Both the position numbers and the translations under genes were made by a program. From a virus, in IMG/VR virus record IMGVR_UViG_3300009034_000171, positions 1 through 29,278 of that record: 29,278 nucleotides of DNA; one strand, 5' to 3'. Below the pieces are notes generated by a model, which saw nothing but the letters and a program-made list of their open reading frames with translations, was not told where the DNA came from and made no database searches. Positions 1,151-20,638 of this stretch are shown here, piece by piece (position 1 is the first letter of the stretch; the number at the start of each line of letters is the position of its first letter).

Positions 1151-2488
1151 CTATCGTATGCCCAAAGATTCATGACTCCTACTCTGTGAACTACTAACAA
1201 CTCTGATTCTCAATTTGAATAGAGTATAAACCCCATATCGCATCGCATCCATCCCATCATCTTTGTCTTTGACCATATCCTCTTTCGTCTTCAGATTCGC
1301 CCACAAGTATGTCGGGAACTCCTCAACTGTGGATGTCGGCCTGCGATTCATCAGAAGCCGCTGATCCAACTCTACCAAAGAGCCGACCAGAAAGAACATC
1401 CGATCCTCTTCTATCAGCTTATAAACCTGCTCCTGGCCACCCAAACGGGACTTTTTGGCGTTGACTGTCTTCACGCCTTCGGAGCGCAAGACAGCCGCTC
1501 CATGTGCATCATGATCGCAGATTACTTTGGCTTCAATTCCATCATGGAGGCAAAACTGGACGATCTCTTTCGCATGGTCAGATACTAACCTGTTACTCAT
1601 ATAGATTTCGCGATACATATACCAGAAATCGCCAGGAGAAATAGCCCACCATTGACACACAAATGGATGGTCAAACCCGAAATCTACAGTGATAACACGC
1701 CGCCAATCGTCCGGGATTTTCAAGAGACTAGTCCGCGCGGTGAACTGCTCCATAGTTATCAGATGCTTAGTTGGATCAAACGGATAAACCATCCCTTCCG
1801 CAGCAACCCACATACCATCTCTATATCTCAGCCTGAAGACGCCAGTAAGTTGGTCAAGCCGCTGATAGTATATTGGCGGCAAATCTGGAAGGATTTGGCC
1901 CTGAATCTCTCTATAGCCATCGAGCTTATTGGTGAAAAAGCGACTGTAGAGCCAATGGGCAGGAGCGTCTGGATTGGAAAGCAGAAACGCTTGATGGAAG
2001 CCAACACCCGGAAGCCGCAAACACCGGAGAATTTGAGTCTCAAAATCTTCTTCAGTAATCTCCTTAGCCTCTTCTACTACAATAAGACCATATTCGCGGG
2101 AGGCTAACTTCGTGACTTCCTTTGTGGAGTCCAGACCACATCCCCAGAACTCTGTGCCATTGTTAATCTTTCGATATAATAGACTATCATTCGACCTGAC
2201 AACTAAACTCGGTGGCAGAACTTCGTCAATAAATTTCTTCCAAAGAGTCGGCACTAAGTCAACGCGCTTCTTCCGAACCAAAGCGATGCAATTGTTAGGA
2301 AACAATATGCCCACGCCAAAGGCCTTCGCCGCGCCTACATGCGTCTTTCCACTTCCCCAAGGCCCATGAAATAGTAGCGTTGGACTATTATCATCAAGTG
2401 CCTCCGCTTGTGGCTGATTCTTTGCCACAAACTCACGCTCTCCCTCTTCCTCAGATATGCCTTCATAATCTATAAGGACTGTGCTCAT
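1151..2488 (-). CDS. terL: terminase large subunit (ATPase-nuclease)
   Basis: 445 residues, normal length for the PBSX/Terminase_3 type. It is the packaging motor that translocates and cuts phage DNA at the portal. The ATPase half shows Walker A GPWGSGKT (residues 42-49), Walker B with the catalytic Glu in YGLIVVEEAKE (about 133-143) and the coupling motif LLSNP (169-173). The nuclease half shows the RNase H-like acidic residues: Asp269 in ITVDFGFD, Asp325 in VICDHDAHG, and Asp411/Asp414 in KDKDDGMDAMRYG. The ATG overlaps the terS stop by four bases (ATGA), with AGGA before it. All expected motifs are present, so it should be functional. Confidence 0.95.
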   Translation of the reverse strand: MSTVLIDYEGISEEEGEREFVAKNQPQAEALDDNSPTLLFHGPWGSGKTHVGAAKAFGVGILFPNNCIALVRKKRVDLVPTLWKKFIDEVLPPSLVVRSNDSLLYRKINNGTEFWGCGLDSTKEVTKLASREYGLIVVEEAKEITEEDFETQILRCLRLPGVGFHQAFLLSNPDAPAHWLYSRFFTNKLDGYREIQGQILPDLPPIYYQRLDQLTGVFRLRYRDGMWVAAEGMVYPFDPTKHLITMEQFTARTSLLKIPDDWRRVITVDFGFDHPFVCQWWAISPGDFWYMYREIYMSNRLVSDHAKEIVQFCLHDGIEAKVICDHDAHGAAVLRSEGVKTVNAKKSRLGGQEQVYKLIEEDRMFFLVGSLVELDQRLLMNRRPTSTVEEFPTYLWANLKTKEDMVKDKDDGMDAMRYGVYTLFKLRIRVVSSSQSRSHESLGIR

Positions 2489-2948: not shown

Positions 2949-3018
2949 TGGAGCGGACGAACGGAGTTGAACCGCCACTCTCTAGCTGGTCGCCAGAGCA
3001 CTGCCCTCAGGCGTCCGC
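2949..3018 (-). ncRNA. tRNA-like element with encoded CCA at the mom-terS junction
   Basis: On the minus strand, 70 bases carry the outer half of a tRNA. A perfect 7-bp acceptor stem (GCGGACG with CGTCCGC) is followed by discriminator T and an encoded CCA. A 5-bp T stem (GGCGG/CCGTT, two G-T pairs) encloses the loop TTCAACT. The inner 35 bases are not canonical: they can form a 3-bp D-like stem (GAG/CTC) or a 6-bp stem (CTCTGG/CTAGAG) with loop CGACCAG, which lacks the usual U33. The element overlaps the last 12 codons of the upstream mom gene. Possible roles, all inferred: RNase P processing between mom and terS, a packaging or regulatory signal, or a decayed tRNA. Confidence 0.6.
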
Positions 3019-3626
3019 TTCGGATATGGAATCGCAAGGGGGAGAATCTTTCTCCGCATCCCCCTATCCAGGGGATACAGATACTTATACTTTACACCAG
3101 TCTCAACCCTACACACATGCGGATCTATCTTTCTAAGAATTTCCATCCTGGTCGTGCCATACTTCCCCTGTAATGTGCGAGGATGCTCTACTTTCCCAAA
3201 TATTCTAATATGTTTCGCGCTCCTAGTTCCAACGAAAATCCAATTCGATGCCTGATAGATGATACCAAGATGCCCTTGACCATCATCTGCATATGACACA
3301 CAAAGCCGCAATCCCGGATTAGCCCCTTTCAATAATCTAATTGCAGCCGCTAGCACTTGACTAACAGGTGTCTCATGCCGCCGCATCGCTACCCTCAAAC
3401 ATTCACATACTTCCTGTTGCTTCAAGGCATATGGCTTTCCAATATTAGGAGTCGCACCCAATCCAAAGACGATAGCACCAATAAATTGACCATTCTCCCA
3501 AACGCCGATCTTAGCCAATTTGCTAGCTGGCATAGCTCTACTATAATGCCAGTGTTTAACAGCATACTTCGCCGCTTCGTGACTACACCAATCAACTACA
3601 AGACCATTCTTTTGAGCAAAATTCAC
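2982..3626 (-). CDS. mom: Mom-type adenine modification protein, copy 1
   Basis: 214 residues, resembling the phage Mu Mom family (GNAT-like fold). In Mu, Mom converts adenine in DNA to N6-(methylcarbamoyl)adenine and so blocks host restriction. Visible signatures are VDWCSHEAAKYAVKHWHYS near the N-terminus, KIGVWENGQFIGAIVFG, VCECLRVAM, GLRLCVSYADDGQGHLGIIY, a KYGTT segment and YPLDRGMRRKILPLA near the end. The GTG start lies one base after the previous stop (TGATGTG), implying translational coupling; it aligns with the starts of both sister genes. The C-terminus runs about ten residues beyond copy 2, into the tRNA-like element. Family assignment is by motif memory; enzymatic chemistry in this phage is inferred. 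Confidence 0.85.
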   Translation of the reverse strand: MNFAQKNGLVVDWCSHEAAKYAVKHWHYSRAMPASKLAKIGVWENGQFIGAIVFGLGATPNIGKPYALKQQEVCECLRVAMRRHETPVSQVLAAAIRLLKGANPGLRLCVSYADDGQGHLGIIYQASNWIFVGTRSAKHIRIFGKVEHPRTLQGKYGTTRMEILRKIDPHVCRVETGVKYKYLYPLDRGMRRKILPLAIPYPKRTPEGSALATS

Positions 3627-3627
3627 A

Positions 3628-4251
3628 TCAATTCCCATCACGCTTCGGATATGGCATCGCCAGTGGCATAATCCGCCTTCGCATCCCTCTATCAAGTGGA
3701 TACAGATATTTGTACTTCACAGCCATTTTAACCCAACAAGCATCCGCATCAAAAGTTCTGAGCACATCTATCGCTGTCGTGCCATATTCAGCGGAGATAG
3801 ATCGCTTATGTCTGATTTGCCCGAATATCCTAATCTCGTCTTGCTCCGCAGTTCCAACGAAGACCCAATTAGATGCCTGATAAATAATCCCCAGATGCCC
3901 CTGCCCATCGTCCGCATAAGATATGCAAAGTCGTAAGCCGGGATTACCTTTTTTCAATAATGCTATTGCTAAACTCAGTATCCTGCTAACAGGTGTATGA
4001 TGGCTACGCATCGCTACCCGGATACATTCACAAACCTGGTCTTGACTTAACCCATAAGGACTCCCTATCCTGTAGTTTGCCCCACGCCCGAATATGATCG
4101 CTCCGATAAACCCTCCGTGCTCCCAAACTCCAATCTTGACCAACTTCCCAAATGGCATAGTCTCCTTATAATGCCAACGTTGACAAGCATACTCCGCAGC
4201 CTCGTGGCTACACCAATCAACTTTCAGGTCAACCTTCTGAGATACACTCAC
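3628..4251 (-). CDS. mom: Mom-type adenine modification protein, copy 2
   Basis: 207 residues, the closest paralogue of copy 1. The two share long identical stretches, including ADDGQGHLGIIYQASNW and YKYLYPLDRGMRR, so a recent duplication is likely. The motif order is the same: VDWCSHEAAEYAC, KIGVWEHGGFIGAIIFGRG, VCECIRVAM, RLCISYADD and a C-terminal LAMPYPKR. I choose the GTG at 4251, six bases after GAGG, because it aligns with copies 1 and 3; a TTG at 4263 in the same frame is possible. It overlaps the end of copy 3 by 23 bases. Keeping two near-identical copies suggests distinct sequence targets or dosage, but neither is shown. Confidence 0.85.
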   Translation of the reverse strand: MSVSQKVDLKVDWCSHEAAEYACQRWHYKETMPFGKLVKIGVWEHGGFIGAIIFGRGANYRIGSPYGLSQDQVCECIRVAMRSHHTPVSRILSLAIALLKKGNPGLRLCISYADDGQGHLGIIYQASNWVFVGTAEQDEIRIFGQIRHKRSISAEYGTTAIDVLRTFDADACWVKMAVKYKYLYPLDRGMRRRIMPLAMPYPKRDGN

Positions 4252-4894
4252 TTTGATCCTCAACTCTCCGTTTGGGATATGGCTTGGCTAATGATTGGAT
4301 CTTGCGCCGCATCGCCCTATCCAATGGGAAGAAGTATCGATGCTTTCTGCTACTTCTAACTAAAACCACTTCATCTGGTTTAGCGCACCTATAATGCCGA
4401 CCAAACTTGGTAGTCCAACCTGATGCTGTGACATTTTTCTGATGATAGATTTTTCCAGTTTTTTTGTGCCTGTATAGTCCGGTAGGATCTGTGAGACCTG
4501 TGTAAATCCAATTAGTTGCTTGATAAATGCCGCCATGATGATTCATATACAAATCCGCGAACGACACCAATAGCCGCAAGTTAGGAGAGAGTTCCCGGAG
4601 TTTACGAATAGCTATGGAGAGGATTTTGGAGACGGGCGTTATGTGCGTATCTAAGGCGATTCTCACACATTCAGCAACCTGCATCTTATCAATACCGCAA
4701 TAGAGTTTGGTGCGTCCTAACAGGCCATCACCAAAGATAACGCATCCAATAAATGCCCCATTCTCCCAGACTCCGATCTTGACGAGTCTACCAATAGGAA
4801 TTGATCGACTATAATGCCAACGTTCACAAGCATATTTAGCGGCTTGGTGACTACACCAATCTACAACAAGATCAGCTTTTTGGGATGAATTCAT
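4229..4894 (-). CDS. mom: Mom-type adenine modification protein, divergent copy 3
   Basis: 221 residues and the first mom gene of the triplet in transcription order. The N-terminal core is conserved (VDWCSHQAAKYACERWHYS, KIGVWENGAFIGCVIFGDG, VAECVRIAL, LRLLVSFADLYMNHHGGIY). The C-terminal part carries a longer basic insert (TGLYRHKKTGKIYHQKNVT) before FPLDRAMRRKIQSLAKPYPKR. The ATG at 4894 has CGGAG eight bases upstream. It begins inside the last 23 bases of the ParB-like gene, so the two are translationally coupled. The insert falls where target or cofactor specificity could differ from the other two copies; that is inference. Confidence 0.85.
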   Translation of the reverse strand: MNSSQKADLVVDWCSHQAAKYACERWHYSRSIPIGRLVKIGVWENGAFIGCVIFGDGLLGRTKLYCGIDKMQVAECVRIALDTHITPVSKILSIAIRKLRELSPNLRLLVSFADLYMNHHGGIYQATNWIYTGLTDPTGLYRHKKTGKIYHQKNVTASGWTTKFGRHYRCAKPDEVVLVRSSRKHRYFFPLDRAMRRKIQSLAKPYPKRRVEDQSECISEG

Positions 4895-5381
4895 GTCCAC
4901 ACTCCGGGCAAACAATGGGAGATTTCTGGTCAAGTCTTGGTTGCTGACCTTGAGTCGTCGGCTCGAATGCAGGAATCTCAATCTCCTCTTGCGTGAATCC
5001 AGTTCGTTCGATCTCAACGCCCATGTCTTGTAACTCACGAATCAGCACATCACGTTCTTCGATATTCCACGATGATCGCTCCTGGAGTTTGTTATCAGCA
5101 ATCATCCACGCTTCTGCCTTGCCCTCTGGGAAATCCAGTTCCATCATCCAAGATCCAGTCTTGCCCTCTTTCTTCTTTGCCTCGATCAAGCCATGCCCGG
5201 TCAACACATAGCCCGTAGACTTCTGGAAAGAGATTGCTATTTTGCCATCTCCATACTCTTGTATGCTCCTTTGAAGCCACTGGATTTGGTCTTCTGTGTG
5301 AATGCGGGGATTCCTGGGATGAGGTTCCACCTCCGAAAATTCCTTCCAGACGATTTTCGGCTTAATTCGCTTTTCGTCCAT
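4872..5381 (-). CDS. ParB-like domain protein with C-terminal zinc ribbon
   Basis: 169 residues. The start resembles ParB/Srx-type domains (ParBc): VWKEFSEVEPHPRNPRIHTEDQ, a helix QIQWLQRSIQEYG, then GYVLTGHGLIEAKKKEG, where the family usually has GHGR; here the Arg is Leu. A SAM-methylase partner domain, common in phage ParB-methylase fusions, is absent. The last 20 residues hold CPECGH, a half zinc knuckle. ATG at 5381 has GGAGG six bases upstream, and the QueD-like stop lies four bases before it. Its link to three mom genes suggests DNA targeting or a cofactor role in modification; this is inferred from position only. Nuclease activity, reported for some relatives, cannot be judged. Confidence 0.72.
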   Translation of the reverse strand: MDEKRIKPKIVWKEFSEVEPHPRNPRIHTEDQIQWLQRSIQEYGDGKIAISFQKSTGYVLTGHGLIEAKKKEGKTGSWMMELDFPEGKAEAWMIADNKLQERSSWNIEERDVLIRELQDMGVEIERTGFTQEEIEIPAFEPTTQGQQPRLDQKSPIVCPECGHEFIPKS

Positions 5382-5384
5382 CAA

Positions 5385-5843
5385 CTACCTCCCGATATTT
5401 GAGCACCTAACTTGTCCTACAAGTTCTCCAGTCTCCAGATCCGCCACAGTTTGTAAACGAGGATCGCATATCACTGGCTCTGGAAAGTATAGAACCGATC
5501 CATGCTTTGGAGTGGATACTCTCACAGACTCATGCGGCGACTCTATAAGCTCAGAAAGCCATTTGGCGATATTTGCCGATGTGGGATTAAAGTCAAATAC
5601 ATCATTAAGAACTTCATGATGCGGCAATAATGTATGTAGACCATCTCTTAACGTTGAAACGTTAGGCAATAGTCCCTCTATTGGTCTCCCATCAAGCCCA
5701 AGCGTATTCTTGCCAAGATCGCTATCCTCATAGATATAGACGACCTCAACCGTCCATGTATGCCCATGCAGTCTGGAGTGAGAGCCACAGCCCTCAATCA
5801 AATGCGCAGCATCAAACGTTCCATCAATTGGTACTCTGAACAT
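5385..5843 (-). CDS. QueD/6-pyruvoyl-tetrahydropterin synthase-like protein, altered active site
   Basis: 152 residues. The fold signature of the PTPS/QueD family is clear: FDAAHLIEG (zinc His14), RLHGHTWTVEV (zinc His26 and His28) and NPTSANIAKWL. In QueD this zinc enzyme turns dihydroneopterin triphosphate into carboxytetrahydropterin, on the path to preQ0 and deazaguanines. Several catalytic positions differ: His22 stands where the catalytic Cys is expected, His75 replaces Asp in the LDH triad motif, Ala90 replaces Glu in PT-EN, and the late Glu is missing. It may use another pterin-like substrate or be a binding protein. It is first in the mom-ter operon, with ATG five bases after GGAG and a promoter just upstream. 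No QueC or QueE gene is in view. Confidence 0.75.
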   Translation of the reverse strand: MFRVPIDGTFDAAHLIEGCGSHSRLHGHTWTVEVVYIYEDSDLGKNTLGLDGRPIEGLLPNVSTLRDGLHTLLPHHEVLNDVFDFNPTSANIAKWLSELIESPHESVRVSTPKHGSVLYFPEPVICDPRLQTVADLETGELVGQVRCSNIGR

Positions 5844-5864: not shown

Positions 5865-5893
5865 ATTATATCATATCTTCAATAATTCGTCAA
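5865..5893 (-). promoter_or_regulatory. sigma-A promoter of the modification/packaging operon
   Basis: Minus strand: -35 TTGACG (5888-5893), 17-bp spacer ending in TGA, -10 TATAAT (5865-5870). Expected start near 5858, giving a very short leader before the QueD-like gene. The -35 lies directly beyond the end of the hairpin RNA, so termination of the upstream RNA and initiation of this operon are only bases apart. The near-consensus sequence suggests host RNA polymerase can read it without a phage factor. Confidence 0.85.
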
Positions 5894-6003
5894 ATAGAAA
5901 AGCTGCGATAATGACTTAAGTTCAATGGAGGTGAACAGCAGAGTATTATCGCAGCTTCTCTTTCGCTTCTCTATTTCCTTCCTAGCAGATCGATTTGGAA
6001 GGT
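5890..6003 (-). ncRNA. candidate small RNA with anti-Shine-Dalgarno apical loop
   Basis: A minus-strand promoter at 6010-6038 points into a strong stem-loop. The outer stem is 17 bp (5945-5961 with 5896-5912), with one pair that is G-U on the minus-strand RNA but A-C on the other, favouring minus-strand transcription. Inside, a 5-bp stem GTTCA/TGAAC presents the apical loop CCTCCAT, containing CCUCC, the complement of GGAGG. The 3' arm is T-rich (TTTTCTATTT), so the hairpin may also terminate the RNA. Length would be about 110 bases. It could pair with ribosome sites or act as terminator and insulator; function is inferred. Confidence 0.6.
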
Positions 6004-6009
6004 ATCTTT

Positions 6010-6038
6010 AGTATATCATAGACTGGTGAATCTGTCAA
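6010..6038 (-). promoter_or_regulatory. sigma-A promoter for the hairpin RNA
   Basis: Minus strand: -35 TTGACA (6033-6038), exact 17-bp spacer ending TATGA, -10 TATACT (6010-6015); start expected near 6003. The -35 overlaps the stop codon of the upstream 33-residue membrane peptide. No open frame with a ribosome site follows before the hairpin, so the transcript is probably non-coding or reads through into the QueD-like operon as a second promoter. Confidence 0.75.
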
Positions 6039-6136
6039 CTCCGCTTGATCGCATTGTGGATTTTTCCAAGCGACCAAATAATTATGAGAAGACATCCTAC
6101 AATAACACCAAGAGCACCCGCAAGAAAATAATTCAT
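6035..6136 (-). CDS. 33-residue single-pass membrane peptide
   Basis: A short gene with GGGAGGG eight bases before its ATG. The peptide begins MNYFLAGALGVIVGC, continues with LLIIIWSLGK and ends IHNAIKRS. It has one hydrophobic helix of about 20 residues and a basic tail, so a positive-inside topology with the C-terminus in the cytoplasm is expected. It could be a small holin-like, superinfection or regulatory membrane peptide; nothing in the sequence decides. It ends exactly at the -35 of the next promoter, at the end of the small-gene operon. Confidence 0.6.
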   Translation of the reverse strand: MNYFLAGALGVIVGCLLIIIWSLGKIHNAIKRS

Positions 6137-8762: not shown

Positions 8763-8777
8763 GTTACCTCCATTCTC

Positions 8778-8811
8778 TGGTCAATTCACTGAATAATTTA
8801 TGAATTGACCA
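8778..8811. promoter_or_regulatory. inverted-repeat operator or mRNA hairpin upstream of ardC-like gene
   Basis: TGGTCAATTCA (8778-8788) and TGAATTGACCA (8801-8811) form perfect 11-bp arms around a 12-base AT-rich centre. A third half-site, TTGACCA, follows at 8819-8825. The element lies between the ribosome site of the ArdC-like gene and its presumed promoter. It could be a dimeric repressor site or a hairpin in the leader RNA. A related pair of arms occurs at 10349-10393. Confidence 0.7.
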
Positions 8812-8818
8812 GCATTAC

Positions 8819-8911: not shown

Positions 8912-9478
8912 CTATTTATCTAACTCTCTCGTCTTTATGTAATACCTCATCGTATCATAACCAACGCTATGAGACCGGGCTAATTGCGCCTTAGTGACTC
9001 CAGCTTTCAATGCCTCCCTGATGGTCTCCGATTCACCAGTGAGCTTGGCTTTCGATGCTCCAAGCCCCTCGCCCAAACCGTGCTTGATCACATACTCTTT
9101 CACTCCAGTATAACTAAGACCATACATCCTCGCTATCTCTGCTCTGGAGACACCATCTTTTAACAGCGTCCGTATAACTCCCTCCTTCCCATCCAGTATC
9201 GAGATCGGACGATATGTCTTATATGCTTCTCTGACTGGTGCTTTTGGTGCTTTCTCCGCTATCTTTAGACGTTCACCTGCTGAAAGTGGATTCTTAACTT
9301 TCTTGACCGCCACAATCTCTCCCCACTTCACCACAGCATATTCGCCACAAGAATAGCGGGATGGAGTGTATCTTGTAAAGACAACCTCTCCATCCTCAAT
9401 GTATGCAAACATTCTGGAAGCGTCCAGCTTGAAATAGTCAGCCTCGGCAAGAATCCGCTGCTTCTGCTTCTTCGTCAC
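8912..9478 (-). CDS. tandem helix-turn-helix DNA-binding protein
   Basis: 188 residues. Two copies of a resolvase/Hin-like HTH unit follow a basic N-terminal region: GVIRTLLKDGVSRAEIARMYG with LSYTGVKEYVIKHGL (about 104-138), and TIREALKAGVTKAQLARSHS with VGYDTMRYYIKTREL (about 153-187). The duplicated fold suits recognition of a long or repeated site, such as the inverted repeats nearby. The N-terminal 90 residues are unassigned. Its start overlaps the curlin-repeat gene by ATGA. The family is seen; its role as regulator of the TGGTCAATT operators is a guess. The 28 bases after it and the box upstream of ardC fill the remaining gap. Confidence 0.72.
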   Translation of the reverse strand: MTKKQKQRILAEADYFKLDASRMFAYIEDGEVVFTRYTPSRYSCGEYAVVKWGEIVAVKKVKNPLSAGERLKIAEKAPKAPVREAYKTYRPISILDGKEGVIRTLLKDGVSRAEIARMYGLSYTGVKEYVIKHGLGEGLGASKAKLTGESETIREALKAGVTKAQLARSHSVGYDTMRYYIKTRELDK

Positions 9479-9825
9479 TTATAATCACTCATCCTTTGGA
9501 CTATAATTGCTATTCCACCATTTCCAATTTGTGTAATTGATGCCTTGAAGTGATCCCCATACTGGAAGATTGCAGCATAGTTAGAATCTCCCTCCTGGAC
9601 TATAGTTGCTTTATTATGGCTTCCCCGTTGGAATATCTCTGCAATATTGAAGTCTCCCTTCTGGTCTATTGTTGCCGCATTGAAATCTCCAATCTGCTGG
9701 ATCGTGATCTCATTAAAAGCGCCATCAGACTCAAATGAGTATTCATTGTCTATCCCAACTTGCTCGATATATGCTACACTATCGGCAAGACTAATCAGAG
9801 TCAATAATATTGATAGAGCTTCCAT
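9475..9825 (-). CDS. curlin-repeat (amyloid-type) protein
   Basis: 116 residues. After a hydrophobic N-terminus (LSILLTLISLADSVA, possible signal peptide, but without a basic n-region) an 11-residue repeat runs to the end. Gln recurs at 44, 55, 66, 77, 88, 99 and 110, Gly two residues after each of the first six, Ile two before, and Asn at 38, 49, 60, 71 and 82. Units read like NAATIDQKGDF and NIAEIFQRGSH. This is the Q-x-G-x-x-N-x-A pattern of curlin repeats (CsgA/CsgB), which stack as beta-solenoid amyloid. No csgG-like exporter is in view. It sits between a zinc protein and an HTH protein in an intracellular-looking operon. The ribosome site is weak. Confidence 0.72.
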   Translation of the reverse strand: MEALSILLTLISLADSVAYIEQVGIDNEYSFESDGAFNEITIQQIGDFNAATIDQKGDFNIAEIFQRGSHNKATIVQEGDSNYAAIFQYGDHFKASITQIGNGGIAIIVQRMSDYK

Positions 9826-9828
9826 GTC

Positions 9829-10329
9829 TCAATCGCTCTTTCTGAGAGGCACATTTGGATGATAATAGAATACCCACCGGATATTACTCCCCGGCTCTCT
9901 GCTCTGACGTTTGGCTACCAACGGAATACTACACTTTGGGCATCTTTTGTTGTAAATCCTGCCTCCCCGCTGTTTATGCACTAAAGAGCCATGACTAGGA
10001 CAACGTGGAGCGACTTCCTCAATTTCATCCTTCAGAGTGCTCTTGATCTGCCTCTCCATACTTGCCGTAAAACGTGCCAGCACTTTGAATAGATCATCCT
10101 CCTCCAAGTCGATCCCCATCCTCTTGGCGGTCTCCTCAATCTCCACTTTTTGCAATGGGCAGAAACTAGCCACTCCGTTCCTCACATTCCACCATCCTCG
10201 CTCCGGCTCTGGCTCTCCCTCAAATGTGGCATTGGTCTTATGGCATTTATACGGGCCGCCCTCGCTCAAAAATGGACAGTCAATGCACCGATAGACTGTA
10301 GTGATCACAAATCTCCGCACTTTCATCAT
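9829..10329 (-). CDS. zinc-binding hypothetical protein, 166 residues
   Basis: Two cysteine clusters are visible: YRCIDCPFLSEGG with a later Cys (KCHKT) near the N-terminus, and CPSHG...KRCPKCSIPL in the second half. The latter is arranged like a zinc ribbon, between helical segments. This suggests a DNA- or RNA-binding or adaptor protein, but no family is recognised. GGGAGG lies nine bases before the first of two adjacent ATGs. Upstream is the second TGGTCAATTC inverted repeat, suggesting shared control with the ArdC-like gene. The stop is followed after three bases by the curlin-repeat gene. Confidence 0.68.
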   Translation of the reverse strand: MMKVRRFVITTVYRCIDCPFLSEGGPYKCHKTNATFEGEPEPERGWWNVRNGVASFCPLQKVEIEETAKRMGIDLEEDDLFKVLARFTASMERQIKSTLKDEIEEVAPRCPSHGSLVHKQRGGRIYNKRCPKCSIPLVAKRQSREPGSNIRWVFYYHPNVPLRKSD

Positions 10330-10348
10330 AGCTGTGTTCCTCCCAATG

Positions 10349-10393
10349 TGGTCAATTCTCCGGCCAATTTAGCGTTAATCTATGAATTGACCA
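10349..10393. promoter_or_regulatory. second TGGTCAATTC inverted repeat
   Basis: TGGTCAATTC (10349-10358) and GAATTGACCA (10384-10393) are perfect 10-bp arms spaced by 25 bases; a related GGCCAATTT lies between them at 10362-10370. The element occupies the 50-base gap upstream of the zinc protein gene and reaches into the last codons of the gene before it. No clear promoter is visible, so control may act on RNA or on a distant promoter. Confidence 0.6.
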
Positions 10394-10979
10394 GATGCCT
10401 CACATACTCTGGATAGGAGTCTATTGCGGCATGATAGTCTGATTTCGGGATTGTGTTGGCGATCTTCTGAGCCAACGCGAAGAGCCACTGCGCTGCTTCT
10501 TTATCAAACTCTCCACATAAGAGATGGATGTATGGATCAAAGTCTACCACATCCCAAGTTGTTGGCGTGATTTTGTATGTCTGAAATAGAACCTTTGCCG
10601 TCCTATATCCAGCCATGCCTTCTCCGCCATGTGTCCTGCTGAAGCCATCTCCAGTGAAGATAGCCTCATGTGCATTGGAGTCCAGAATCAGAAATCCACA
10701 TCCCTTATCTGCGGTCGGGATCTCTACTACTGCAATCTTGCGTCGAATCCGCTCCGCCAGTGTGTTGCGAAGAGCTTTGATGCTCTCTCTGGTGACTCCC
10801 ATAGCTTCTGGATTCTGAATCACACTTATCAAATGAATCCCCATCGTTGTAACCTCCCTCTCTCTGCATCTCACAGTGTTGTTAGTAAAATTGATAGCAA
10901 ATAATCTGCTACAAGTGGCACAATCTGCTATCGTGACATCTCTATTAACAATAGTGCAATGAAACTGCTTGTCAATCAT
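10380..10979 (-). CDS. hypothetical protein with N-terminal zinc motif
   Basis: 199 residues, not recognised. The N-terminus has Cys at FHCTIV, CATC and a later RCRE that could form a small zinc knuckle; the main body is mixed alpha/beta with a conserved-looking GCGFLILDSNAHEAIF and HGGEGMAGYRTAKVLF. The full-length ATG overlaps the DUF3560 stop (ATGATTGA). A second in-frame ATG at 10844 has GGGAGG eight bases upstream, a much better ribosome site, so a 154-residue product without the zinc motif may be made as well or instead. Confidence 0.62.
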   Translation of the reverse strand: MIDKQFHCTIVNRDVTIADCATCSRLFAINFTNNTVRCREREVTTMGIHLISVIQNPEAMGVTRESIKALRNTLAERIRRKIAVVEIPTADKGCGFLILDSNAHEAIFTGDGFSRTHGGEGMAGYRTAKVLFQTYKITPTTWDVVDFDPYIHLLCGEFDKEAAQWLFALAQKIANTIPKSDYHAAIDSYPEYVRHLVNS

Positions 10980-20293: not shown

Positions 20294-20360
20294 ATTATAC
20301 CATATGTTTAATGTGTTGTCAAGTATAATAGTCGTTTTTCAGGAGCGAAAACGGTCGAAA
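20294..20360 (-). promoter_or_regulatory. leftward sigma-A promoter with shared upstream box
   Basis: Minus strand: -35 TTGACA (20317-20322), 17-bp spacer, TGG then -10 TATAAT (20294-20299), all consensus; start near 20287. Immediately upstream (20323-20360) is the box with TTCGACCGTTTTCGC and TGAAAAACGACTATTATA, shared with the promoters at 12.4 and 8.85 kb. It is predicted to be the strongest promoter of the window and drives the long minus-strand operon. Confidence 0.9.
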
Positions 20361-20397
20361 AAAAGACAGTTTTTTCAACTTTTTTCGCATTTTTTTT
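20358..20397. other. phased A-tracts (bent DNA)
   Basis: Four runs of A or T (7, 6, 6 and 8 bases) begin at 20358, 20370, 20380 and 20390, spaced 10-12 bases, close to one helical turn. Such phasing bends DNA intrinsically. It is directly upstream of the leftward promoter, where it can act as an UP element, and inside the 400-base non-coding divergent region, where it could also mark a replication start. Confidence 0.6.
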
Positions 20398-20440
20398 GCT
20401 ACTGCTGTCATCCAGACTTGTGTGGAGTAACCCAGAGATA

Positions 20441-20558
20441 ATGGGCGTTTAGACACATCACACTATGCACATATGACCAGCCGTATTTGCCATCTGAGAC
20501 ACATTCTCCCCTGCTTGTGTGTAATTACATGGCGATTTTGGCATCCATAGACGCCCAT
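20441..20558. repeat. distant inverted repeat ATGGGCGT in the divergent region
   Basis: ATGGGCGT (20441-20448) recurs inverted as ACGCCCAT (20551-20558); one mismatch beyond, TA also matches. The arms are about 100 bases apart, a spacing suited to DNA looping or paired initiator binding. The interval between holds no gene with a ribosome site. The match is short, so chance is possible. Confidence 0.35.
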
Positions 20559-20572
20559 GAATAAACAGTTTC

Positions 20573-20596
20573 TATTTTCACATTTGTCTGAAAATA
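20573..20596. promoter_or_regulatory. operator-like dyad before the rightward promoter
   Basis: TATTTTCA (20573-20580) and TGAAAATA (20589-20596) are perfect 8-bp arms with an 8-base centre, ending 13 bases before the -35 of the plus-strand promoter. Position and symmetry are those of a repressor or activator site. The HTH protein encoded first in this operon is the obvious candidate ligand, by inference. Confidence 0.55.
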
Positions 20597-20609
20597 AACC
20601 CAGAAATCC

Positions 20610-20638
20610 TTGACATCTCCATAACTCTATGGTATAAT
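20610..20638 (+). promoter_or_regulatory. rightward sigma-A promoter
   Basis: -35 TTGACA (20610-20615), 17-bp spacer ending in TGG, -10 TATAAT (20633-20638), fully consensus with an extended -10; start near 20645. It drives the short plus-strand operon and stands back to back with the leftward promoter about 290 bases away. Confidence 0.9.

Follow-up and report, generated by a model that had tools for sequence, protein, structure and literature searches.

A promoter-flanked nested hairpin, probably an intrinsic terminator, ahead of a Mom-type modification operon in a viral genome

What purpose does a near-consensus promoter serve when the RNA it starts runs almost at once into a strong hairpin? 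The question is raised by a virus record of IMG/VR (29,279 bases, GC 45.5%), of which we analyzed a stretch of 29,278 nt, hereafter the window. According to the preliminary description of this DNA, the hairpin exposes CCUCC, which is complementary to Shine-Dalgarno (SD) sites, and might either block translation or act as a terminator or insulator before a modification operon. To weigh these possibilities, we compared the structure of the hairpin, its gene context, and its candidate relatives in other phages and prophages.

Two promoters and a nested hairpin

Promoter P1 (6010–6038, minus) agrees with the consensus at 11 of 12 positions, TTGACA-17-TATACT, with a TG before the −10 element, and its start site is expected near 6003. 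The −35 element overlaps the stop codon of the last upstream gene, a 33-aa minus-strand ORF (6035–6136) with an apparent single membrane span (MNYFLAGALGV...) and no NCBIfam match. A second minus-strand promoter, P2 (5865–5893, TTGACG-17-TATAAT with a TG extension), was missed in the preliminary description; it adjoins the 3′ end of the hairpin and starts inside the hairpin's U-tract. P1 and P2 are two of the five sites in the window with at least 11 of 12 matches, and the remaining three match at all 12 positions. On the minus strand, three sites of at least 11/12 with the TG were observed, compared with a mean of 0.03 in 100 shuffles. A near-consensus promoter does point into the hairpin, as first described. 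Elsewhere in the window, two divergent 12/12 promoters with TG (20322–20294, minus, and 20610–20638, plus) delimit a region (20294–20638) that is probably a regulatory switch.

Between P1 and P2 lies the main hairpin (5891–5965, minus), whose core arms (5896–5912 and 5945–5961) are 17 nt long, 94% complementary, and separated by 32 nt. The stem exceeds chance: its arms are the longest in the window at no more than one mismatch, and the best arms in dinucleotide shuffles reached 15 nt or less in 60 of 60 cases. The minus-strand RNA folds at −39.3 kcal/mol (z −5.29) and the plus-strand RNA at −34.8 kcal/mol (z −2.89). As had been stated, the sole non-Watson-Crick pair is G-U in the minus-strand RNA only; in the plus-strand RNA it is A-C. 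The base of the hairpin is GC-rich (GCUGC/GCAGC) and is followed, on the strand of the promoter, by the U-tract UUUUCUAUUU (5892–5901), which overlaps the P2 start. Inside the outer stem, folding gives an inner hairpin, GUUCA-CCUCCAU-UGAAC (5920–5936), whose 7-nt apical loop CCUCCAU (5925–5931) has an unpaired probability of 1.0; the arms and loop are thus as first described. Additionally, the P1 transcript is predicted to fold into a 5′ hairpin, CCUUCC-N14-GGAAGG (5977–6002). The main hairpin occurs once in the record.

A search for tRNA and tmRNA found none. A riboswitch was rejected because no Rfam family, preQ1 included, matched at the gathering threshold despite the QueD-like gene downstream; at E values up to 10, the Rfam matches were implausible (microRNA, lncRNA, mycobacterial sRNA, and Fst antitoxin). 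A coding reading was also set aside, as the plus-strand GGAGGUGA at 5927 has no start codon at a useful distance.

The modification operon and a candidate terminator ahead of it

Behind P2, the minus strand encodes a QueD/PTPS-like protein of 152 aa (5385–5843, with its ATG at 5843 behind GAGAGGAG; below the NCBIfam cut-off, Pfam PTPS 1.8e-9), a ParB-like protein (4872–5384), three tandem Mom-like proteins (2982–5038; ORFs 4229–5038, 3628–4263, and 2982–3695), and the small (2485–2916) and large (1151–2488) terminase subunits, which together span 1151–2916. The first Mom-like gene, in ORF 4229–5038, probably starts near 4871. The C-terminus of the ParB-like protein, CPECGHEF, contains a zinc-knuckle-like CPECG, and its zinc-ribbon matches are sub-threshold only; a single CPxCG knuckle likewise ends the ParB of loci L017 and L021. 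Identity to the middle Mom-like gene is 65% and 47% for the outer two. In the other Mom loci, one Mom match per locus is found in 110 of 118, and L133 has four.

Two further features were seen elsewhere in the window. Inverted repeats at 8777–8812 and 10348–10394 (arms CTGGTCAATTCA / TGAATTGACCAG) lie just upstream of an ArdC-like gene and of the gene at 9829–10329, respectively, and are a possible operator pair. A curlin-type repeat ORF at 9475–9825 (minus; best NCBIfam match CsgB, 1e-21, below the cut-off) is odd in a phage.

A distant DNA search found no relatives of the region in 50,697 phage records, and the same records held no relatives of the QueD protein. In IMG/VR, terminase relatives show 24–35% identity and Mom relatives 38–60% (best segment, in the 80 IMG/VR loci kept). 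The stem pattern matched a single IMG/VR locus, L009, where it falls inside a coding gene, and this match was rejected. Among 132 loci, Mom is present in 118 and ParB in 93, and in 62 of them ParB precedes Mom on the same strand by no more than 1.5 kb; because 62 of 132 loci share this arrangement, ParB-Mom(-terminase) is a recurring module. QueD relatives L003–L008 have no Mom; among the window and the 132 loci, a QueD-like gene was seen alongside Mom in the window only.

The hairpin structure with its tail, the matches of P1 and P2 to the promoter consensus, and the order of the genes are plain features of the sequence. From them, we infer that P1 and P2 are active and that the hairpin is probably an intrinsic (Rho-independent) terminator of the minus strand, stopping transcripts from P1 and from further upstream ahead of the modification operon that P2 drives; its purpose would be to insulate this operon. 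RNAs begun at P1, or in the upstream operon whose last gene is the 33-aa ORF, would enter the hairpin; the GC-rich base and the UUUUCUAUUU tail would then release RNA polymerase near 5893, leaving a P1 RNA of ~110 nt. Upstream transcription would be kept out of the QueD-ParB-Mom-terminase operon, and this operon would be served by P2, starting in the terminator tail.

In a d'Aubenton-type terminator score, the hairpin reaches +6.2 on the minus strand versus −8.5 on the plus strand. A score of at least 6.2 was reached somewhere in 4 of 40 shuffled windows, and two minus-strand sites of the window score higher (14690–14637, +16.5; 20970–20946, +7.3), so the score alone is weak. The terminator reading gains weight because ~70 nt separate the stem from the stop codon at 6035 and the tail contains the start of P2. 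At lambda tR2 (PMC4824070), ribosomes repress the terminator when it lies less than ~30 bp from the stop codon, and termination is maximal beyond this distance. Moreover, no antiterminator fold appeared among the 12 best suboptimal structures. The gene context also counts in favor of termination: of the 53 ParB-Mom loci in which 300 nt or more of upstream sequence is present, 27 carry a terminator with a positive score no more than 1.5 kb before ParB, and in enteric prophages a covarying T-tailed hairpin lies upstream of ParB.

Similar to intrinsic terminators such as lambda tR2, the hairpin has a GC-rich base and a U-tract and stands between a stop codon and the promoter that follows. In contrast to them, it has a long AU-rich upper stem, a nested hairpin, a 32-nt interior, and a modest score. 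The AU-rich upper stem counts against a terminator, as do the interior, which is long for one, and the ability of the tail to pair in part with AAAUAG upstream. Furthermore, a plain terminator does not explain why a near-consensus promoter should yield only ~110 nt. Collectively, the GC-rich base, the UUUUCUAUUU tail, the score of +6.2, and the position of P2 directly behind support the terminator or insulator that the preliminary description had offered as its second option.

A nested-hairpin element upstream of ParB in enteric prophages

Enteric prophages (Yersinia, Serratia) share one element upstream of ParB. It consists of a T-tailed outer stem around an inner hairpin, GNNCA-CC[CU]-UGNNC, with a covarying stem and a 3-nt loop (CCC or CCU in most). 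Sites of the element include L021 at 5292–5355, L078 at 5175–5241, L032 at 4637–4703, L174 at 2410–2472, and L146 at 1501–1565 (minus). Two models were used, R1 with 8 rows (alignment A2, window excluded) and R2 with 20 rows from 19 loci. In the alignment of 20 members (A4), changes on both sides occur in 14 of 20 pairs, and 93.5% of cells pair, compared with 28–53% for slid structures; A4 was fitted to the R1 structure, so the pair counts lean towards that structure, and the slide control is still clear. The element has no Rfam match, and no name for it was found in the titles and abstract openings of the open-licence papers that our searches listed.

In further loci fetched by ParB, R1 finds the element directly upstream of ParB. 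Out of 71 R1 matches, several weak ones that look like plain hairpins (e.g., L147, L148, L150, L151, L153, L178, and the second ones of L090, L186, and L211) were left out of A4; L135, L149, L198, L211, and L216 went unused as well, together with many that were near-identical. On 295 Enterobacterales genomes, R1 gave seven matches, namely the training genome G001 and six others. Of these six, L146 (38.3 bits) is a new site directly upstream of ParB; the other five (L147–L151) are weaker, and L149 is not at ParB. One form of the element from the loci fetched by ParB has near matches in 163 of 5426 E. coli genomes, and the 8 among the matches listed carry no annotated feature there. Around 19 enteric elements, no promoter of at least 10/12 was found in the 180 nt upstream or the ~110 nt downstream, and within the same distances L146 has none of at least 9/12.

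Two tandem copies of the element, ~230 nt apart, precede one ParB gene in L085 (5062–5128 and 5296–5361). Another intergenic hairpin, GCATTACAG...GATAATGC, recurs in L182, L174, L135, L152, and L164; it lies upstream of the enteric element or of an HNH gene, and in L152 alone between two genes. An 11-mer, GCTGCGATAAT, is common to the window stem arm and the E. coli form of the GCATTACAG...GATAATGC 5′ hairpin; it was noticed post hoc and left unused.

When the window was searched with R1, the hairpin ranked first at 27.4 bits (E 9.9e-6, filters off), and the next match had 9.4 bits. The R1 rows had been picked after the likeness of their inner hairpin to that of the window was seen, with the terminators of 27 loci in view beforehand; therefore, this match is not a blind test. 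With R2, the hairpin was again the top match, at 25.1 bits (E 2.4e-4, filters off), lower than with R1. Ordinary sites in ten genomes of ~59 Mb reached 26.4–27.2 bits with R1 at least three times and 25.5–30.1 bits with R2 at least five times; these counts are lower bounds, from scoring 150 or 17 first-look candidates per genome. Such sites at 26–30 bits thus occur at least once per 12–20 Mb, which gives a probability of no less than 0.0015 to 0.0025 that a score of this size arises somewhere in 29 kb, with no correction made for the 27 loci in view. At an E value of 1, R1 matched 0 of 92 Mom loci outside the training set (95 were searched, and the matches fell in three training loci only). 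Similarly, no intermediates were found in other Mom loci, where the best score was 17.0 bits (100 loci).

The window hairpin resembles the enteric element in its T-tailed outer stem, its strand, and its module, and the inner GUUCACC...UGAAC fits the pattern GNNCACC..UGNNC. In contrast, its apical loop has 7 nt (3 in most enteric members), promoters flank it, and the next gene downstream is the QueD-like gene, which intervenes before ParB; the 5′ hairpin of the window shows no likeness to the element. Kinship is suggestive, and only so, because ordinary sites reach 26–30 bits and R2 lowers the score of the window; convergence of terminators is a possible alternative. If the kinship is true, CACC is the conserved core of the loop, and CCUCC is peculiar to this phage. 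A free-standing P1 RNA would likewise be a feature of this phage, since the enteric elements lack such promoters.

Alternative roles of the hairpin and its loop

Apart from termination as such, the hairpin could be a conditional leader or attenuator, in which the regulated promoter P1 serves the modification operon and the hairpin is passed late in infection, with the help of a phage factor or by an antiterminated polymerase. The tandem P1-hairpin-P2 is one of two such trios in the window and the 132 loci, and two direct repeats (AGAGAAGC) are both able to pair with GCUUUUCU. Moreover, the enteric elements lack a promoter of at least 10/12 in the ~110 nt downstream, so ParB may need read-through there. 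However, the 12 best structures of the window hairpin hold no competing antiterminator fold, Rfam reports no riboswitch even though a QueD-like gene follows, and the operon has its own promoter P2. An attenuator is therefore unlikely here.

The translation block put forward in the preliminary description would make the ~110-nt P1 RNA a small regulatory RNA, whose CCUCC loop pairs with the SD sites of phage or host messages in the manner of Gram-positive small RNAs with C-rich loops. By sequence, this RNA is intergenic and comes with a promoter and a terminator; the near-consensus promoter and the terminator-like hairpin enclose it alone, and the P1 RNA is the strongest reason to consider an independent RNA function. 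With all its bases exposed, the loop is able to pair with SD sites, as any CCUCC is. The claim that nearly every gene uses GGAGG was too strong, since GGAGG precedes 32 of the 56 minus-strand ORFs that have a credible SD and 60 aa or more; GGAG or GAGG precedes 51 of the 56. The loop falls within UCACCUCC, which is identical to the 3′ tail of 16S rRNA, but the UCA part of UCACCUCC is paired in the inner stem.

Against 44 start regions of the window, the best duplex of the loop has −16.4 kcal/mol and the mean is −11.8 kcal/mol. No target stands out among the window genes: when the same CCUCC was kept and its flanks were shuffled (200 trials, window genes only), 140 of 200 loops were equal or better in their best duplex and 121 of 200 in their mean, which argues against tuning of the flanks to any window target. 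The presence of CCUCC in the loop is itself hardly beyond chance. CCTCC occurs at 8 minus-strand sites of the window, so its expectation within the 32 nt between the arms is ~0.8%, and, of the 122 strong hairpins from the 132 fetched loci, 4 contain it on one or the other strand (244 strand readings); the coincidence is mildly unusual and was noticed post hoc. In IMG/VR, the loop pattern was found in 7 loci, in none of them within such a hairpin. An 18-nt stem with CCTCC in L055 was judged a coincidence, as the motif lies opposite the strand of its T-tail.

As in the Gram-positive C-rich-loop RNAs (RNAIII, RsaE, SprD, FsrA, and LhrC) and the anti-SD icaR 3′-UTR, an exposed C-rich loop could pair with SD sites in the window, and, like those small RNAs, the window RNA has its own promoter and a terminator-like end. 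LhrC offers a precedent, with a UCCC motif at work in the loop of its terminator (PMC4132741). Unlike these RNAs, the window RNA has no specific target among the window genes and no UCCC in a loop or single strand; the loop CCUCCAU, within ACCUCCAUU, carries CUCC instead. Furthermore, CCUCC is not kept in the candidate enteric relatives, and their CACC core, if the kinship is real, counts against the anti-SD role by the test of conservation that the preliminary description itself had set. Collectively, these results make a small regulatory RNA rather improbable. They also clear up the original observation: the structure is real, and the anti-SD match of its loop is no evidence of translation control. 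Most likely, CCUCC is in the loop by chance or for structural reasons.

Since Mom-like genes lie downstream, a protein could also bind the hairpin RNA and control Mom expression, as Com does in phage Mu; here a Com-like or ParB-linked RNA-binding protein would be involved. In Mu, Com switches on translation of mom through binding to a hairpin loop with the motif CC(N)2-3GAG (PMC6483171). The CPECG end of the ParB-like protein is half a zinc ribbon, and the Yersinia-type loop CACCCUGAGC holds the Com motif. In other members of the family, however, the motif is broken and the inner stems covary (GACC, GGGC, GCGC), and the window has CC-AUU-GAA with the GA in the stem, so the Com motif is absent. 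We do not propose a Com site, because neither the window nor the members outside the Yersinia type carry this motif. Thus, the likeness to com-mom control lies in an RNA hairpin near Mom genes, and the differences extend to position and gene content: Mu Com acts next to the mom start, whereas the window hairpin is ~1 kb away from the Mom start here; no separate com gene was seen; and the ParB-like protein has only one CxxC. Such control is very unlikely. Equally remote is an element acting as DNA (a cruciform or protein site, a mobile hairpin, or a packaging or replication signal), since the near-perfect 17-nt inverted arms that suggest it occur as a single copy in the record, hold an imperfect pair that is rescued only in the RNA of the promoter strand, and enclose a 32-nt spacer, while the tail and promoters fit a role in transcription.

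Termination ahead of the modification operon remains the preferred reading, and its extension to other phages is tentative. In this extension, an undescribed element, a nested-hairpin terminator with a conserved inner CACC loop, might guard ParB-Mom modification and packaging modules in very distant phages and keep them silent until a loop-binding factor or an antiterminated polymerase passes; in the present phage, it might also be freed as a ~110-nt RNA by a dedicated promoter. In Mu, Mom-type DNA modification is tightly held back until late. If a conserved terminator does head ParB-Mom modules, the question of how other phages delay modification could be addressed at a definite site.
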